Virus record (IMG/VR): IMGVR_UViG_3300044646_000007
Location: 1 to 21,673 of that record
Source of the DNA: a virus
DNA: 21,673 nucleotides
Strand: one strand, 5' to 3'
This document shows, piece after piece, positions 4,640 through 21,263 of this stretch (within the stretch, counting starts at the first letter, position 1; each line of letters opens with the position of its first letter). A program made the translations under genes and the position numbers. The notes below the pieces were generated by a model, which saw only the letters and a program-made list of their open reading frames with translations, did no database searches and had not been told where the DNA came from.

Positions 4640-5620
4640 TTAATTAAATCCACCGTCAAGAATAAACGCCGCATCTTTCGGCCTGCCGGTCATCAATACG
4701 TCTGGGTATTTGCTGACCTGTGGCGGCTTCATGTTTGTGCGCTTGACTGTTGCTTTTGCCTGCGCAGCATACGCCGAAATTTGGCCGATTTGAACCTGAT
4801 TGACTTTGCCGTACATAGGCATCATGCGCTCGGCCAAGCACCACCGCAGGCACATATTGTAGCCCTGCGGAAATTGCATTGACCCGTACAAATCCCCAAA
4901 CTCGCGGAAAATTGTGTTGGTGAATAAGTGCATTTCACCCTGCGATGGATTCGGCCACAAGTAGATAGTTCCCAGCAGCTCAGACGGCTGGTAATACAGC
5001 GCCTTCGGCCACGGGCCGTTGAGCGTTTTTAGGCCGATAGATTCGTATTCCTCAAGGCTCAAAATTGTGATCGGATAGTCCAGACCGCCGCCATAGATCG
5101 GCACCCCGTTGCTGGTGGTATTAACCCGCACAAAAGCGCTATCAATGCTTAATGGGCGTTCATAGTAAGAATCAATAATCTCATCAACGACCGGCGTTAT
5201 ATGGGCGCGGCTAACCGTATAGGTGCCGCCTTCGTTGACGTTGCCGCCTGCGCCTGTAGTAAAGCCGACAATCGTGGTGCCGGGTAGCACCCCGTTGCCG
5301 GTTAGCGTCATGCCAATAGTGATCGCACCTTTTAATACGCCGTCATTAGGCACGGTCAGGGTAGTGCCTGAAATCGACCCAATAAACCGCGCCGATACGT
5401 TACCCGCTGGGCCTATGGTGTATTGCACCTGATTCTGGACGCAGGGAAACACAATCTCGGTGCGATAAAACACCATCATGTTTTCGTTAGACCACTGCGC
5501 CAACATGTCGTTCAGCATGTCCAGCCCGTCTTGCGCTTCGGCGGCAGTCGGGTTTTCGCCAGCAGCCAATGCGCCAATATCTTTCATGGCGCGGCTAATG
5601 ATGTCGAGAGGCGTTGTCAT
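4640..5620 (-). CDS. Packaged DNA stabilization protein / head completion, P22 gp4-like with inserted module
   Basis: 326 aa. The N terminus, PLDIISRAMKDIGALAAGE then LDMLNDMLAQWSNENMM, and the C-terminal half (ILSLEEYESIGLKTLNGP, ALYYQPSE, GTIYLWPNP, NMCLRWCLAERMMP) fit the gp4 / tail accessory factor family that binds the portal ring and is the first neck protein added after packaging. P22 gp4 is only 166 aa. Residues about 78-143 (bases 5192-5389) carry an extra beta-type module with GSISGTTLTV, GMTLTGNGV, PGTTI and GGTYTVS, a pattern I know from phage fibre and surface proteins. It sits between VQYTIGPAG and YYERPLSID, which would normally be continuous. The SD (AAGGAATC) precedes the ATG at a usual distance, and the gp10-like gene follows after 13 bp. 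Confidence 0.85.
   Translation of the reverse strand: MTTPLDIISRAMKDIGALAAGENPTAAEAQDGLDMLNDMLAQWSNENMMVFYRTEIVFPCVQNQVQYTIGPAGNVSARFIGSISGTTLTVPNDGVLKGAITIGMTLTGNGVLPGTTIVGFTTGAGGNVNEGGTYTVSRAHITPVVDEIIDSYYERPLSIDSAFVRVNTTSNGVPIYGGGLDYPITILSLEEYESIGLKTLNGPWPKALYYQPSELLGTIYLWPNPSQGEMHLFTNTIFREFGDLYGSMQFPQGYNMCLRWCLAERMMPMYGKVNQVQIGQISAYAAQAKATVKRTNMKPPQVSKYPDVLMTGRPKDAAFILDGGFN
5192..5389 (-). other. Inserted fibre-type beta module inside the gp4-like gene
   Basis: An in-frame segment of about 66 codons. The encoded residues follow the pattern GSISGTTLTV, then ITIGMTLTGNGV, PGTTIVGF, a TGAGG turn, and GGTYTVS. The surrounding gp4-type sequence resumes on both sides. Boundaries are approximate because they are set by eye from where the family pattern stops and restarts. 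Confidence 0.6.
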
Positions 5621-12951: not shown

Positions 12952-14208
12952 TTAGGCTGCGACACGGCAGGCCAGTTCTTGGTACAGCGGTGCCCAGCCA
13001 TACAGGACATCAATACGAGTCGGGATCGAGTCGTTGTTGATGGTGTATTGACGCACCACACGAAGCGACAGACCTAGCTCTTTGTCCGATGCGCGGCCAG
13101 CAAAGTGAACGCCGTCAGGCAGCTCAAGATCAGCAGTCGCAAGCGTGAACGCATTGCGGTGCATGATGATGTTCTGTGGCGATACGGTGCCGGTGGCCGA
13201 CGTGCCGATGGAGAACGGGGTAACAGTCGCGGTAGCCGAAGTGGTTGGGATCGTGACGTTTTGGAACTGACCGCCGGTGATGATCGCCGGAACAACAGTC
13301 ACTTGCATGGTCGAAGAACCGGAACCAGTTACGGTCGATTGGATCACGAAATTGCGTGGCTTGTTCGAACCATACGCCTGACGGTTCTGCGGGTTGACCG
13401 CAAACACGTTAGCGATCTGGATCACATCGCCTTGACGCAGGGTCAGGCCTGCGCTGTGGGTCAGGGTGATCGTCGAGGACGATGCCCAGCCGGTAGAAAT
13501 ACCGATGCTCTGTGTATTCGCGGTCAGGGTGCCAGCAGTTGTAGTCCACGAACCGAAAGTTTGTGCCACAACGTTCTGATCCATCTTCCAGTTCATACCA
13601 CCCGAATCACGGCCCATCAGACCCTTCTGGTACTGATCCGATACTGCGGACTGTGGGTTAAACAGACCCTTTAGGCTGTCAACGATAGTCGCCGAAGTAA
13701 ATGGCTCGATGATGCAAGAACGACGGCCATCACGCGGTGCGCCTTCGCTGTCCAGATACGCTTGCGCGGTCAGGTAAGTGATAAGGCCGGTCGGTGGTGT
13801 GCCAGCGGTGCCAACGATGTTAGCGGTCGAGTTCTTAGCCGTTGTCAGGCCGTCGAAGTCGATCTTGTTGGCAATAGCCGCCACAGCAGGCTTCAGAACG
13901 CGGTCGCTGAACATATCGAGCGACAAGGCCAAGTCTTGCGTGGTGAACTGGGTATCAACGTGGAACTGAGTTGACAAGGTGACTGGGATGCTGGTTTCGT
14001 TGAAATCTTCAACGTTCAGCGCAGGGCCAGTCGTACCAATGAAGCGACCCGGACGGCGGACGTTCAGGGTGTTACCGATTTTTGCGCCTACGACGGCAAA
14101 TTGATCGTCGTACTCGCGGTTTACTTCTGACGAGAATGTTAGTTCGTTTTCCAAGACCATCAACGCTTCGTTGGTGATCTTGCTAATGGTTAGCAAATTG
14201 TTGGACAT
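12952..14208 (-). CDS. Major capsid (coat) protein, P22 gp5-like
   Basis: 418 aa (P22 gp5 is 430). The N-terminal half has ITNEALMVLENELTFSSEVN, then GNTLNVRRPGRFIGTTGPAL (45-64) and STQFHVDTQFTTQDLALSLD (79-98), followed by DRVLKPAVAAIANKID. The C-terminal part has HRNAFTLATADLELPDGVHF, LGLSLRVVRQYTINNDSIPT and DVLYGWAPLY. These are the marks I know for P22-type HK97-fold coats. Residues about 225-340 are beta-rich and replace or match the P22 insertion domain. It forms the icosahedral shell on the scaffold. P22 coat folding uses GroEL/ES, and a GroES-like gene lies upstream in this window. The gene sits between scaffold and a 140-aa structural gene, with the SD (AAAGGAA) in a weak hairpin at 14217-14230. 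Confidence 0.93.
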   Translation of the reverse strand: MSNNLLTISKITNEALMVLENELTFSSEVNREYDDQFAVVGAKIGNTLNVRRPGRFIGTTGPALNVEDFNETSIPVTLSTQFHVDTQFTTQDLALSLDMFSDRVLKPAVAAIANKIDFDGLTTAKNSTANIVGTAGTPPTGLITYLTAQAYLDSEGAPRDGRRSCIIEPFTSATIVDSLKGLFNPQSAVSDQYQKGLMGRDSGGMNWKMDQNVVAQTFGSWTTTAGTLTANTQSIGISTGWASSSTITLTHSAGLTLRQGDVIQIANVFAVNPQNRQAYGSNKPRNFVIQSTVTGSGSSTMQVTVVPAIITGGQFQNVTIPTTSATATVTPFSIGTSATGTVSPQNIIMHRNAFTLATADLELPDGVHFAGRASDKELGLSLRVVRQYTINNDSIPTRIDVLYGWAPLYQELACRVAA

Positions 14209-14236: not shown

Positions 14237-15181
14237 CTAGCGTATTTTCCTCGATGAACGGGCGGCTTTCCACTGCTGATACGTTCCATGAAAATTGCCA
14301 TCGGCATCCATGTTGGCATCTACTGTGTTTACCGCACCGCGCAGCGGATTAATCGGCGCTGGCGCTTTTGACTTCCCAACAACAGGCTTTGGCTCCGGTT
14401 CTTTTGCCTTGTCGAAGCGAGCTTCGATCTTCCCAATCTCACGAACAGCAGAAACAACTGACATATCGGCCAATTTCTTTGCAAAGTCGGTGTTTTCAGC
14501 CAACCAATACAAAATTTTTGGCCCATGCTCTGATTCTATGATGGCATCCCGAACCGGGTCAGACACCCGCACCTCGGAACTTTGCACCATATCGTCAAAG
14601 TCGGGTAACTCGTTCTTGGCAGCGCTTACGCGATCAGCCCAAACTTTGAATTTTGCATCCTGTTCGGCCTTCGCTTGACGCGCCTTCTCCTCGTTATCCC
14701 GTTCCATCAGCTTTTTATCAGCGGTATATTCAGCCAACGCTCTCGCGTATTCGAACATATCGCTGAACTGCTCTGGCTGCGGCTCTGGGCCTAGCGCATC
14801 CGCTTCCGGTTCGACCGGTTGCGGGTTTACTTTGGCTTCCAGCTCTCTCAGCCTAGTTTCCAGCACTTCCCGTTGCTCACGTTCGCGTTGCGCTTCCTGC
14901 CGCGCTTGCTCTCGTTGCTTGGTTATCTCTGAAAACCGCCGTTCCAGCTTGGGATTTGGCTTCTTTTCCTTCGCCTCGTCTGTTGCTGTCGCGTCCTTCC
15001 CTTCCCCGTCCTGTCCACTTTGATCTGCCTCGGCATCCGGCTCGGTAACGGCGCTGTCTGCGTCCTCGTTTACCGCCTCGTTAGCTGGCGTTTCAACTAG
15101 ACCAAGTTTCTGGGCTGCGAATTCCGCTAAATTCTCACTGGTGACGATATTTGCCGCCAGCCTTGCTTCCACTTCAGACAT
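14237..15181 (-). CDS. Scaffolding protein, P22 gp8-like
   Basis: 314 aa (P22 gp8 is 303). Residues about 30-70 are very acidic. A charged coiled coil follows at about 78-119 (KLERRFSEITKQREQARQEA onward). The second half is mixed helix, with ELPDFDDMVQ and KILYWLAENTDFAKKLAD, then a K/P linker. The end is a basic helix, YQQWKAARSSRKIR, matching the coat-binding basic C terminus known for P22-type scaffolds. It directs coat assembly and leaves before or during packaging. The position between portal and coat matches P22. The ATG has an SD (AGGGAA) 6 bases upstream, and a candidate promoter lies in the 70-bp gap before the gene. Confidence 0.85.
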   Translation of the reverse strand: MSEVEARLAANIVTSENLAEFAAQKLGLVETPANEAVNEDADSAVTEPDAEADQSGQDGEGKDATATDEAKEKKPNPKLERRFSEITKQREQARQEAQREREQREVLETRLRELEAKVNPQPVEPEADALGPEPQPEQFSDMFEYARALAEYTADKKLMERDNEEKARQAKAEQDAKFKVWADRVSAAKNELPDFDDMVQSSEVRVSDPVRDAIIESEHGPKILYWLAENTDFAKKLADMSVVSAVREIGKIEARFDKAKEPEPKPVVGKSKAPAPINPLRGAVNTVDANMDADGNFHGTYQQWKAARSSRKIR

Positions 15182-15226: not shown

Positions 15227-15255
15227 ATTGTCATCCTGTATTCATTCCATGTCAA
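15227..15255 (-). promoter_or_regulatory. Candidate sigma70-type promoter before scaffold and coat
   Basis: Coding-strand TTGACA at 15255-15250 is a perfect -35 and overlaps the portal stop. After 17 bp comes GACAAT (4 of 6 matches to TATAAT) at 15232-15227. It lies in one of the few real intergenic gaps (15182-15251) and would start transcription about 40 bases before the scaffold ATG. Sequence match only. Confidence 0.45.
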
Positions 15256-17492
15256 ACCATTGGCTGTTCAGGCGGCATTTGCTCTGGCATAGCCTGCGGC
15301 ATTTGCTGCTGCTGGGCCATTTGTTGTTCTGCCATTTGCTGCATTTGCGCCGCTTGCTCCGCTTGGACAATCATCTCCTGCCCAGCCTGAATAAATGGGT
15401 TTGCGGTGTCGTTGACTTCGTCCTCGGCGAAGGCCATTTGCTGCTGTTGCTCGGCATCGCGTCGGGAAATCTCCGCAGCCAACGCGCCCATCGGCACCCC
15501 AGCCAAGACCAGCCGCAGCATCGCATCTAGCTCGACCTTGTTTTGCTCGGTCGTGGCCTTCAGGTTGGCTTGGTTGATCTTTGCCTCGTTGATAGTGTCC
15601 GTGTTGTAAGCGCGGGAAATCACGTCCATCAGCTTGCGGCGGCTCTGGCCTTCTTCCTTGATCTGCGCAATCTGACCACGGTTCTGGATTTCGAGCTGCA
15701 TCGCAATCATTTGCTGCTGCATATCGGCAATAGTCTTTTGCGACTGTAACAACTGCATTTGCGCCTGCGGTGGAATGTCCGATTTCGGATCGATCTGGCT
15801 CAACGGGTTCATAGCAGCCAGCCGGTCGGCAATGACATCCGCGCCGGGGAAATCCATGTTGCGGAACAGCAGGTCGCCTGCGGCTTGGAACACATTTGGG
15901 TCGGCCATCAGCGGCATCATCGTATCAACGGCCTGCTGGCGCTTTGAGTTGTAACCGGGGCCAACGTCCATCACCACGTCGTACAGGCCGACGGTTACAT
16001 CATTCATCACTTCGCCGGTGGCCTGCGCTTCGTTAATTGTCACCATGTCCGGCTTGCCATCAACCCCAATGATCCGCAACACGCGCTCGGTGTCGTAGAT
16101 TTTGGGGATCAGGTCGAGGATGATCTTGCCCGTCTGCTTAATGCTGCGGGTCATGTTGTCGTAGAAGTGGAAATTGCTCAAATCCACTTGCATTTGCTGG
16201 CCTTGCAGCGCCTTACCCGAAATATTGCCCGGTAGCGCCTGCGCTGGGTCAAAGATACCCAGCACGGTCTTTAGATCGTCAGCGATAGCGCCGGACGCGA
16301 CCATGATGCCATCGGGCGGCGGCTCTGGCTGGATGCGCTGCGGCACCGGCGCGGGTACGCCCTCAATGTCTTTCTGCTTGTAGCGTAGCACCGGCGTTGA
16401 CTTGATGTTCGCCAGCGCCCATTCGCTCTCGTGGCCTTCGTCTTGGCCCTCGGCGATCAGCCATTTTGGCTTTGGTGCCAGCGCAATAGATTCGGTCAGC
16501 GCCGTGCGCCAGAAATTGAACATCCGTTGCGGGTCTTTGGCAAAGCGAACAAGGCCGTATTTCTTGCGCTTGCCCTCAACCACGACCTGCGCACCGTAGC
16601 ACGGGACGATTGGAATGTACTTACCCGGCCATTCGCGTTCTTCCAGCACTTCCATCGCGGTCAGCTTGCACCACTTGACCGTGCGCTTATAAGTCGGGCG
16701 CTTGTCCATGATGGTGATTCCGCTGGCATCCAGCATGTCGGCACTTGGCAGCTCATCCTCAAAGACTTTCGTGCCGTCCGACAGCAAGACCAGTGTGGCT
16801 TTCACGCGCTCGACATACCAGTATTCAGCAAGTCGGATGTCCTCTTTCGTCACCCACTCGGCATCCGAGTCACCCGTGGCTCTCGCACTGAAGTTCGCCC
16901 CATCGTCCGCGCCGGGATATTCCTTGCGGAACGCCGCCTTAGACATCACGCTAGTAATCAGGCAACGCTCGGCATCCGACCCATCGGGCATGACTGAATT
17001 CGGGTCGAAATAAACCGAGAACGGATCATCAATCGCGTCGATGAATATTTCCTGATCGAAACTATCCTCAGAAACGTAATTAGTATTTACCCGCCAATAG
17101 CCCCAGCCCATCTTGACTGCGTACTCGAACGCCGTGTCGTAAGCGGTGTCGGCGTTAGAGTTCACCTCAATGTGCCGGGTGATTCCCTCAATGACCTGCG
17201 CGACCTTCAGATCGCCTTCGTTGTTGACAGGGTGGACTTTGATGCGTGGCCGCTGTTGGCGCTGCTGGTTCGTCACCTGCCGCACATAAGCGTCGATCTT
17301 GTTGATCGTCAGGCAAGGCCGCGATTCTAGGTTGCGGCTGTTTTGAATCTCGACCGGCCACTGATCGCCAGCAGCAAACTTTAGGTCGCCCAGCGCCTCA
17401 GCGCGGTTCTGGCTGTCAGCTTCGCCGACTAGCCGTAGAAACTTAATGGCCTCGCCAATCCTGCCATCCATGTCCATGTCTTGAAACGCCAT
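15252..17492 (-). CDS. Portal protein, P22 gp1-like
   Basis: 746 aa (P22 gp1 is 725). The N-terminal region has DLKFAAGDQWPVEIQ, then PCLTINKIDAYVRQVTNQQR followed by RIKVHPV, the hallmark opening of P22-type portals, and FEYAVKMGWGYWRVNTNY. Further on are DDPFSVYFDPNSVMPDGSDA and NFWRTALTESIALAPKPKWL, and the stem/crown region is at about 380-600. Residues 600-746 are a Q/M/A-rich coiled coil ending in a glutamine-methionine-proline tract, probably the barrel or its equivalent inside the head. It forms the dodecameric DNA gate to which TerL docks and on which gp4 assembles. It starts 10 bp after terL. Confidence 0.92.
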   Translation of the reverse strand: MAFQDMDMDGRIGEAIKFLRLVGEADSQNRAEALGDLKFAAGDQWPVEIQNSRNLESRPCLTINKIDAYVRQVTNQQRQQRPRIKVHPVNNEGDLKVAQVIEGITRHIEVNSNADTAYDTAFEYAVKMGWGYWRVNTNYVSEDSFDQEIFIDAIDDPFSVYFDPNSVMPDGSDAERCLITSVMSKAAFRKEYPGADDGANFSARATGDSDAEWVTKEDIRLAEYWYVERVKATLVLLSDGTKVFEDELPSADMLDASGITIMDKRPTYKRTVKWCKLTAMEVLEEREWPGKYIPIVPCYGAQVVVEGKRKKYGLVRFAKDPQRMFNFWRTALTESIALAPKPKWLIAEGQDEGHESEWALANIKSTPVLRYKQKDIEGVPAPVPQRIQPEPPPDGIMVASGAIADDLKTVLGIFDPAQALPGNISGKALQGQQMQVDLSNFHFYDNMTRSIKQTGKIILDLIPKIYDTERVLRIIGVDGKPDMVTINEAQATGEVMNDVTVGLYDVVMDVGPGYNSKRQQAVDTMMPLMADPNVFQAAGDLLFRNMDFPGADVIADRLAAMNPLSQIDPKSDIPPQAQMQLLQSQKTIADMQQQMIAMQLEIQNRGQIAQIKEEGQSRRKLMDVISRAYNTDTINEAKINQANLKATTEQNKVELDAMLRLVLAGVPMGALAAEISRRDAEQQQQMAFAEDEVNDTANPFIQAGQEMIVQAEQAAQMQQMAEQQMAQQQQMPQAMPEQMPPEQPMV

Positions 17493-17502
17493 GATTTCCC
17501 CT

Positions 17503-18774
17503 TTAACTCATCCAGCCGCCAGCCATAGCGAGCGCAGGCTTTTTGCGCACCTTTGCCGGTTCCTTAACCATCAGCGCGATATACCTAAAAGCGTCAGCCC
17601 CGTGGCTGTGGCGGTCGTGCAGCGGCATTTTGCTGAAGTTGCCGGTATCTGGGTCAACTTCGTAGCGATAATGGCGCAGGCAGTTTAGACCATCGGCGCA
17701 GTTTTCTCTATCGAAATAACAATTCGGGAATATTGTCCGCGCTGCGTTGATCGAGTCAATCGTCGGCACTCGCTCAAGCACCCGTGTCTTAAACCCCGCG
17801 CCCCGCACAATGTCCTCAATGCTGCGACCTGCCGCCGCCAGCGTTTTGTTCTGCGCGTCATGCGGTAGCCAAATCGTGTCGTACACATAGCCGAAGGATT
17901 GCAGCTCGGCTAGGTAGCTGGTCATCGTCCGCTGACTACCTTCAAAGTAGCGGATCAGCCGGGTTTCCATTCCGACAAATTGCACCAGCCACCACGCAGT
18001 CGCGTCCGACCAGCCTAAATCGCAGATCGCGTGTACAGGCTTGACCGGATCGTATGGCACCTTCGTGATGCGCTCCTCGGCCTCCGCCCTCATCATCTCT
18101 TTGGCGAAGATCGCGCCGTCGATGGTCTGGCGACAAACCCCTTCCCACACTTGCATGTACGCTTCGTGGTCGAGCGCCTTCAGGCTCTCCATCTCCATGC
18201 GCAGGGTTTCTGGGAACCACGGGTTGTCCCAGTAATTAATCTTGATGCTGATCGTGTCGGGCGGCGGGTGAACCACAAACCGCTGGTAGGTTTCATCGGT
18301 TTCCAGCTCTGGGTTAAAGCTCACCCAGATTTCGGACCCTTCTTTACGGATGGTCGGGGTCAGGGTTTTCCAGCTATTGCGGCTGACCGTCTGCGCTTCC
18401 TCGACCCAGCAGATGTCGATGCCCTCGTAGGATTTGACGTTGGCGACGTTATTCTTCAAGCCGACAAACGCGAACTCGCTGCCGTTCTGCCCCCGAATCG
18501 ATGTCTGCGTGATCTCAAAAAACTGCATCAGCTCAAGCGCGACGATCTGGTCAACCAGCAGCTTGTGAACCGAGTCTTTAATGGATGTCTGGAATTCCCG
18601 AGCACAGAGGATGCGCAGCGGCTTACGGGCGGCAAGGATAAGTAAGGCTCTGGCGATACCCCACGACTTCGCCCCGCCCCGGCCACCATATAAGACTTTG
18701 TAGCGCGACGGCTTAAATAGCGGCTGGAGTTTTAGCGGGAACTCCGCTTTGGCAATGGCGCTGTCAACGCTCAT
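17503..18774 (-). CDS. terL: Terminase large subunit (packaging ATPase and nuclease)
   Basis: 423 aa, terminase_3 / PBSX-like. The Walker A motif is GGRGGAKS at residues 30-37. Walker B is IDICWVEEAQ at 119-128, with catalytic glutamate 125 or 126. The coupling motif is SFNP at 152-155. The C-terminal RNase H-like nuclease has CDLGWSD (D252) in the first strand, the LPHDAQ aspartate D305 and HSHGADAFRY (D394) as the likely metal ligands. All core motifs are intact. It translocates DNA into the head through the portal and cuts the concatemer. Its start overlaps terS by 11 bp and the portal gene follows after 10 bp. Confidence 0.95.
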   Translation of the reverse strand: MSVDSAIAKAEFPLKLQPLFKPSRYKVLYGGRGGAKSWGIARALLILAARKPLRILCAREFQTSIKDSVHKLLVDQIVALELMQFFEITQTSIRGQNGSEFAFVGLKNNVANVKSYEGIDICWVEEAQTVSRNSWKTLTPTIRKEGSEIWVSFNPELETDETYQRFVVHPPPDTISIKINYWDNPWFPETLRMEMESLKALDHEAYMQVWEGVCRQTIDGAIFAKEMMRAEAEERITKVPYDPVKPVHAICDLGWSDATAWWLVQFVGMETRLIRYFEGSQRTMTSYLAELQSFGYVYDTIWLPHDAQNKTLAAAGRSIEDIVRGAGFKTRVLERVPTIDSINAARTIFPNCYFDRENCADGLNCLRHYRYEVDPDTGNFSKMPLHDRHSHGADAFRYIALMVKEPAKVRKKPALAMAGGWMS

Positions 18775-20536: not shown

Positions 20537-20809
20537 CTAACAGTTCCAGTTCTTTAATGATGCCTTTGCCCGTTCTGCTGGGCCTTTGGCGTGCTTGACC
20601 ACCCCTTCCATTCTCGCGCAGAAGGACGCTTTGCGTCCAGCGTCGGCCTTCGTTTTCGGGTTTGGTGCTGGTGGTTTTAAATTTGAGTCATTCTTGCGGT
20701 TGTATTCAGCACGACCTTTTGCGGTCATACCCGCGCCCTTCTCGGTCGGGTTGTAGTTCTTGCCCTTGCCGGTGGTCGTTTTGGATATCGGTTTGTCGTG
20801 CTTTGCCAT
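20537..20809 (-). CDS. 90-aa basic phage protein with NWNC end
   Basis: ATG directly follows the GroES-like stop. The sequence has GKGKNYNPTEKGAGMTAKGR, then AEYNRKNDSNLKPPAP, RKASFCARMEGVVKHAKGP and the end SLKNWNC. I recognise the KGAG(L/M)TAKGRAxYNRxxxSNLKxP...RKxSFCARM...WNC pattern as a recurrent small phage protein, but I cannot attach a function. It is strongly basic, with two cysteines. It could be a minor virion or DNA-binding protein. The next gene starts 9 bp downstream. Confidence 0.7.
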   Translation of the reverse strand: MAKHDKPISKTTTGKGKNYNPTEKGAGMTAKGRAEYNRKNDSNLKPPAPNPKTKADAGRKASFCARMEGVVKHAKGPAERAKASLKNWNC

Positions 20810-21067
20810 TTAATGCTCCACGATCATGGCGACATCGCCTTCCTGAATGATCTGGTAGTCCTGACCCTCAAACTCATGGACAGGCCAGTCTAAATAGCTG
20901 CCGTTGCCGTATTTAACAAAGTCGCCCACCTTCGTGTCGCGCACCGCTGGGCCAACGGCAACCACCGTGCCTTCGTTAAACGGCTCTTTATTGGGAACAT
21001 AAAGAATGTCCGACAGTCTGCGGACTTCAGGCTTGATAACAATGCGATCACGCAACGGCTTAAGCAT
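20810..21067 (-). CDS. groES: GroES-like co-chaperonin (Cpn10)
   Basis: 85 aa from ATG 21067, with an SD (GGGAG) just upstream. An upstream in-frame start at 21136 would add 23 residues unlike GroES. The start LKPLRDRIVIKPEV (2-15) matches the conserved GroES N terminus. The mobile loop (about 16-32) has the hydrophobic triplet ILY (21-23) in the place of GroES IVL, which contacts GroEL. GTVVAVGP, TKVGDFVKYGNGSYL and the end EGDVAMIVEH follow the GroES fold. At 85 residues it is shorter than E. coli GroES (97). The roof hairpin between AVGP and VGD is reduced to a few residues. It probably forms a heptamer that caps host GroEL for folding phage proteins, the coat being the main candidate. It overlaps the previous gene by 8 bp. 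Confidence 0.92.
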   Translation of the reverse strand: MLKPLRDRIVIKPEVRRLSDILYVPNKEPFNEGTVVAVGPAVRDTKVGDFVKYGNGSYLDWPVHEFEGQDYQIIQEGDVAMIVEH

Positions 21068-21263
21068 TAGGTTTTCTCCCTCTTTTTTTAGGTTCCGCTT
21101 GCGCCATAACGTCATAGACCGGCACCGACGTAACAACGCTTAACTGGTGTTCGCCGCACCAGTCCATTTCGTGTTTGTTTTGAGTTTCGGGAAAACGACG
21201 ACACAAGCCCATTACTTGAGCTTGCGTAAAAAATCGGCAGGATTTGCACCGAACATCGCTCAT
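21060..21263 (-). CDS. 67-aa four-cysteine protein with AT-hook-like tail
   Basis: ATG 21263 overlaps the previous stop as ATGA. Cysteines 6, 9, 21 and 36 form CxxC-x11-C-x14-C, in the motif VRCKSCRFF, GLCRRFPET and MDWCGEH, so a zinc or iron-sulfur site is likely. Small phage proteins of this CRFF...GxCRRFP...WCGEH type are common and uncharacterized. The end, EPKKRGRKPNA, contains an RGRKP core like an AT-hook, which suggests DNA contact. It lies directly before the GroES-like gene and overlaps it by 8 bp. Confidence 0.7.
   Translation of the reverse strand: MSDVRCKSCRFFTQAQVMGLCRRFPETQNKHEMDWCGEHQLSVVTSVPVYDVMAQAEPKKRGRKPNA

Follow-up and report, generated by a model that had tools for sequence, protein, structure and literature searches.

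A phage-encoded Cpn10 with a reduced roof hairpin in the P22-type head module of a lake virus

Why does a small phage with a P22-type head carry its own lid for the folding chamber of its host, and is the shape of this lid set by the coat protein? The question is raised by a lake virus infecting bacteria, which encodes a short GroES-type co-chaperonin (Cpn10). Why T4 gp31 has no GroES roof, and whether this serves its large coat protein, has been discussed mostly on the basis of T4 and related phages. The window, meaning the whole stretch of DNA analysed here, comprises 21,673 nucleotides of the IMG/VR record IMGVR_UViG_3300044646_000007. Since circular relatives measure 33-37 kb, the window of 21.7 kb is probably a fragment.

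The cpn10 gene occupies positions 20810 to 21067 on the minus strand, with an ATG at 21067 and a stop codon ending at 20810, and codes for 85 amino acid residues. A GGGAG sequence precedes the start codon, and the plus-strand frame of the same interval holds a stop. A TTG start at 21136, which would give an ORF of 108 residues, was rejected because most relatives begin at the position matching the ATG. The product matched the Pfam Cpn10 profile PF00166 (E=9.8e-7, 29.2 bits against a cut-off of 21.1, profile positions 2-91 of 93) and the PHROG family 'co-chaperonin GroES' (phrog_3188, E 1.8e-8), and solved Cpn10 chains were matched by sequence with E values from 2.7e-5 to 0.17. When viral contigs were scanned, at least 138 relatives were found, the best 80 of which are 65-99% identical to the window Cpn10. 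An alignment of 32 sequences of the window family contains 34 invariant columns. In pairwise comparisons with the window gene dS was 0.3-1.7 and dN 0.005-0.23 (0.31 and 0.026 against L006, 1.59 and 0.23 against L016), so that dN/dS is well below 1 and the gene is under purifying selection. The 138 viral relatives, the invariant columns and the excess of dS over dN show that the ORF is not a chance one. No relative in a bacterial genome (prophage) was confirmed with the same profile, and the lineage therefore looks confined to phages.

The fold of the subunit was predicted with AlphaFold2. With an alignment of 66 diverse Cpn10 sequences, which took in roofed phage Cpn10s and bacterial GroES, a model with a pLDDT of 84.8 and a pTM of 0.77 was obtained, and it shows the GroES beta-barrel. 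With 32 close relatives alone the pLDDT was 46.5 and the model was unusable; the fold is therefore supported by homology and not independently of it. In a Foldseek search the top 32 PDB matches were GroES/Cpn10 chains or a subunit of a Cpn20 co-chaperonin, the best GroES/Cpn10 match having an E value of about 1e-5, and T4 gp31 came next (4.5e-3). The VIA-align Z scores of the eleven best Cpn10 entries ran from 10.8 (Mycobacterium tuberculosis Cpn10) to 9.0, the latter being also the score of the 1aon GroES; the GroEL-bound gp31 chain reached 8.2, and oxidoreductases with a GroES-like domain at most 7.6. Since GroES-like folds also occur in dehydrogenases, the fold alone is no proof of a Cpn10 function. 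Taken together, the Pfam, PHROG, solved-chain and structure matches bear out the preliminary description of the protein as a GroES homologue, and the window protein is a member of the phage-encoded Cpn10 family. The GroES N-terminal strand and the C-terminal IVE ending reported there are both present.

The roof of GroES is formed by a hairpin of residues 44-58 (PMC5653362). In the window Cpn10 the corresponding segment is GPAVRDTKVG (residues 39-48, positions 20924 to 20953, minus strand), delimited by alignment and by linker counts. Only 8 residues lie between the conserved Gly39 and the glycine of the VGD motif, whereas 17 lie between Gly44 and this glycine in 80 of 80 bacterial GroES sequences, 9 more than in the window; these 80 were gammaproteobacterial and mostly from Enterobacterales, with broader support from solved Cpn10 structures. 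Most of the roof hairpin is therefore missing, as the preliminary description had proposed, and the protein departs from bacterial-type GroES at the hairpin of residues 44-58 (E. coli numbering). The segment has 8 residues in all 38 distinct sequences of the window family, its own included, and in all 80 loci of the DSL-LC05 family. T4 gp31 has 10 residues here, and short segments were also found in Pectobacterium phage CBB and Bacteroides phage SJC03. Among the families reached in this analysis, which are a part of all phages, a reduced roof is thus recurrent. gp31 has been described as being without roof loops (PMC6318259), so the hairpin is no general requirement for a Cpn10. Roofless phage Cpn10s were already known from gp31, and the window protein is an ordinary example of them.

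The contact to GroEL would be made by the mobile loop. The lowest confidence of the AlphaFold2 model falls on about residues 15-30, as is expected of a mobile loop, and this region (VRRLSDILYVPNKEPF, positions 20978 to 21025, minus strand) aligns with the IVL of GroES. The ILY triplet named in the preliminary description, I21-L22-Y23, is plausible as the putative hydrophobic contact to GroEL, and hydrophobic residues are kept at this position across the window family; the GG that precedes IVL in GroES is absent, however, and in the alignment the loop falls 4 residues short of that of E. coli GroES. The mobile loop of gp31 is longer than that of GroES, which goes with a larger cage (PMC6318259). 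As the window loop is shortened where that of gp31 is lengthened, an enlarged cage cannot be assumed. A further mark of the family is the segment YGNGSYLDWPV (residues 53-63, positions 20879 to 20911, minus strand), which is mostly invariant and forms an insertion compared with bacterial GroES: the aromatic stretch YGNGxYLxWP near GroES Tyr71 is longer in the window family.

With E. coli GroES the window Cpn10 shares the N-terminal strand, the beta-barrel core, the VGD motif and the IVE ending, but the two are only 29% identical and GroES has the longer roof, the GGIVL motif and the longer loop. With T4 gp31 it shares the absence of roof loops and a segment after the roof that is longer than in GroES, but the identity is 14% and gp31 has 111 residues and a longer mobile loop. 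The T4 protein serves gp23, which has about 56 kDa and for which it is needed, and the T4 virion is of a different type. As a precedent for a phage-encoded lid gp31 was well chosen in the preliminary description: T4 gp31 and RB49 CocO both replace GroES in E. coli (PMC3012670) and work with the host GroEL, and the same role is proposed here. Closer parallels are found in uncultured phages. Their GroES proteins in BFVD (entries of 83-92 residues, e.g. A0A6J7WHX6 and A0A221S4I6) are likewise short, phage-encoded and of the Cpn10 fold, and viral GroES co-chaperonins of uncultured phages are 25-43% identical to the window Cpn10. The GenBank records MW202520, MW202674 and DSL-LC05 combine a viral GroES with P22-type coat genes as in the window; the MW202520/MW202674 type differs in that its proteins end in MSWKD[IV]CF and have an extended FGTMGxDEYL segment.

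The genes around cpn10 belong to a head module and all lie on the minus strand. A small protein of 67 residues with four cysteines (4-Cys; 21060 to 21263), kept beside cpn10 in most related loci, overlaps the cpn10 start by 8 bases, and a conserved DUF6321 protein of 90 residues (20537 to 20809; PF19846, E=3.8e-17) starts directly after the cpn10 stop, which suggests co-translation with cpn10. Small genes follow, and then the terminase large subunit (terL; 17503 to 18774; PF04466, E=5.6e-41), a P22-like portal of 746 residues and 83.5 kDa (15252 to 17492; PF16510, E=7.7e-181), a scaffolding protein (14237 to 15181; phrog_8865, E=6.7e-41) and the P22-type major coat protein of 418 residues and 44.6 kDa (12952 to 14208; PF11651, E=5.2e-29, and phrog_283). 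An 831-residue fibre-like protein is also encoded in the module. This co-directional order is recurrent: in the loci long enough to show it nearly all agree, with the portal and scaffold inverted in L066 and the 4-Cys or DUF6321 neighbour absent from a few clades. The preliminary description placed cpn10 in the same operon as the coat gene. A conserved, co-directional head module is what stands of this; the two genes are about 6.6 kb apart, cpn10 being upstream, and might share a transcript. Promoter-like sites (6 against 5.1) and terminator-like sites (15 against 11.9) were at chance level in the window, and no operon boundary is therefore claimed. In a set of 18 related records, which includes three complete circular genomes, the P22-type coat family is present in every one. 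Cpn60 (GroEL) was found in none of these 18, in agreement with the earlier statement that no GroEL gene is visible, and the window Cpn10 is probably used with the GroEL of the host.

Several features of the two neighbours were recorded. The 4-Cys protein carries the pattern C-x2-C ... C-R-R-[FY]-P ... W-C-G-E and a basic KRGRKP-like tail, and in most related loci its ORF precedes cpn10 by about 150-290 bases. In Klebsiella phage K64-1 a zinc-ribbon ORF immediately precedes the GroES gene, and the 4-Cys protein is a possible candidate for a functional partner of phage co-chaperonins. The DUF6321 protein is among the best conserved neighbours, being 82-93% identical in many loci where cpn10 is 65-75% identical. 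It is also similar to the C-termini of phage proteins of far greater size (phrog_10346, phrog_3477).

Whether the roof follows the coat can be read from related contigs with a different lid. In four of them (L096, L097, L098 and L100) a roofed Cpn10 stands beside the same 4-Cys neighbour, and L096 and L100 then continue with the same head genes to the limit of their contigs. The roofed L096 has a close relative in L044, which is roofless with a linker of 8 residues: their coats are 89.2% identical, and they form sister branches in the coat tree (support 0.994) and in the terL tree (0.92). The two Cpn10s share just 42% identity, and cpn10 has therefore been exchanged while the coat remained nearly unchanged. 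With roofed and roofless Cpn10s at the same position beside 89% identical coats, the roof is not tied to the coat. The argument is carried by this one well-placed pair, with weaker support from L100, which groups with the roofless L007 and L034 in the terL tree. No 4-Cys neighbour was found in the L044 clade; a 122-residue ORF, of Dps/ferritin-like appearance when judged by eye, ends 5 bases before cpn10.

We consider it likely that the phage Cpn10 replaces or supplements GroES on the host GroEL and that the loss of the roof is a tolerated or mildly tuned trait. The protein would be expressed late and assemble as a GroES-type ring, presumably a heptamer, and its mobile loop would bind the host GroEL. 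Host GroES would then be replaced or supplemented by the phage lid during the folding of phage proteins, the most likely clients being products of the neighbouring head and tail module during morphogenesis. As most of the roof hairpin is gone, the central opening of the lid should be wider, as it is in T4 gp31. The reduced roof would be a trait of the lineage, tolerated or mildly tuned to client or host, rather than a response to coat size.

The reading of the preliminary description, that the roof was opened specifically to enlarge the chamber for the 418-residue coat as gp31 does for gp23, has in its favour that Cpn10 and the P22-type coat occur together in all 18 related records and that gp31, needed for gp23, is itself without roof loops (PMC6318259, PMC3012670). 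The view of P22-type coats as GroEL/ES clients on which it draws has been established chiefly with temperature-sensitive folding mutants, which interact strongly and are handled by host GroES, but the interaction of the wild-type coat is much weaker (PMC2267774). The coat of the window, moreover, is smaller than gp23, the mobile loop is shortened and not lengthened, and the fully roofed L096 has a coat that is 80% identical to that of the window besides being nearly identical to that of the roofless L044. The near-identical coats, the mass of 44.6 kDa and the P22 literature together disfavour an explanation by coat size, which we regard as very unlikely; accommodating the shell protein is probably not what the loss of the roof is for. 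The open roof might instead let larger virion proteins protrude, so that the portal and the 831-residue fibre-like protein are the clients and not the coat. The module does code for proteins of this size, and for gp31 protrusion through the widened opening has been suggested (PMC6318259), but the portal is 71% similar in L096 with its roofed Cpn10, and we find this improbable. A GroES fold serving another, structural or regulatory job, without action on GroEL, would suit the atypical mobile loop and the use of GroES-like domains elsewhere in other proteins; with Cpn10 as the best match by sequence and by structure, and with the hydrophobic residues conserved in the loop, it is highly improbable.

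A sub-case of the favoured explanation, replacement or supplementation of host GroES, concerns the gain of the gene and the reason for the loss of the roof. Here the Cpn10 would mainly match the host GroEL or outcompete host GroES and thereby bias folding towards phage proteins, the roof being dispensable and free to drift. The recurrence of roofless forms in the unrelated phages T4, CBB, SJC03 and the DSL-LC05 family and the exchange of Cpn10 types at one locus are consistent with this, but the constant roof length in 38 of 38 sequences of the window family is explained equally well by constraint and by common descent, and we hold the proposal only tentatively. Going further, P22-like freshwater phages might swap roofed and roofless Cpn10s at one locus and so retune the host GroEL to certain clients or hosts, independently of the coat. 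This is a rather unlikely idea; if it were true, the roof would be an exchangeable part of the GroEL lid that sets its specificity. These small phages offer a large natural set in which roofed and roofless Cpn10s occupy one and the same locus while the coats next to them are nearly identical, so that roof and coat can be told apart in their roles. Apart from this comparison, the window contributes a further phage GroES, located in a head module of the P22 type.

Two further observations were made outside the cpn10 region. The window encodes a 326-residue protein on the minus strand (4640-5620) that matches phrog_12985 in two stretches; its residues from about 75 to 140 match tail-fibre families and may be an inserted domain. 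In L083 (MW202674.1) an insert of about 263 nucleotides, at about 16825-17088, splits the P22-type coat gene; it is absent from the relatives L087 (91-95% identical on either side) and L088. A search of the insert against Rfam gave no match. It contains group-I-like strings (ACGACUAAG ... GAUAGUCUGA) and folds better than shuffled sequences (z -2.4), and is possibly a small self-splicing intron.
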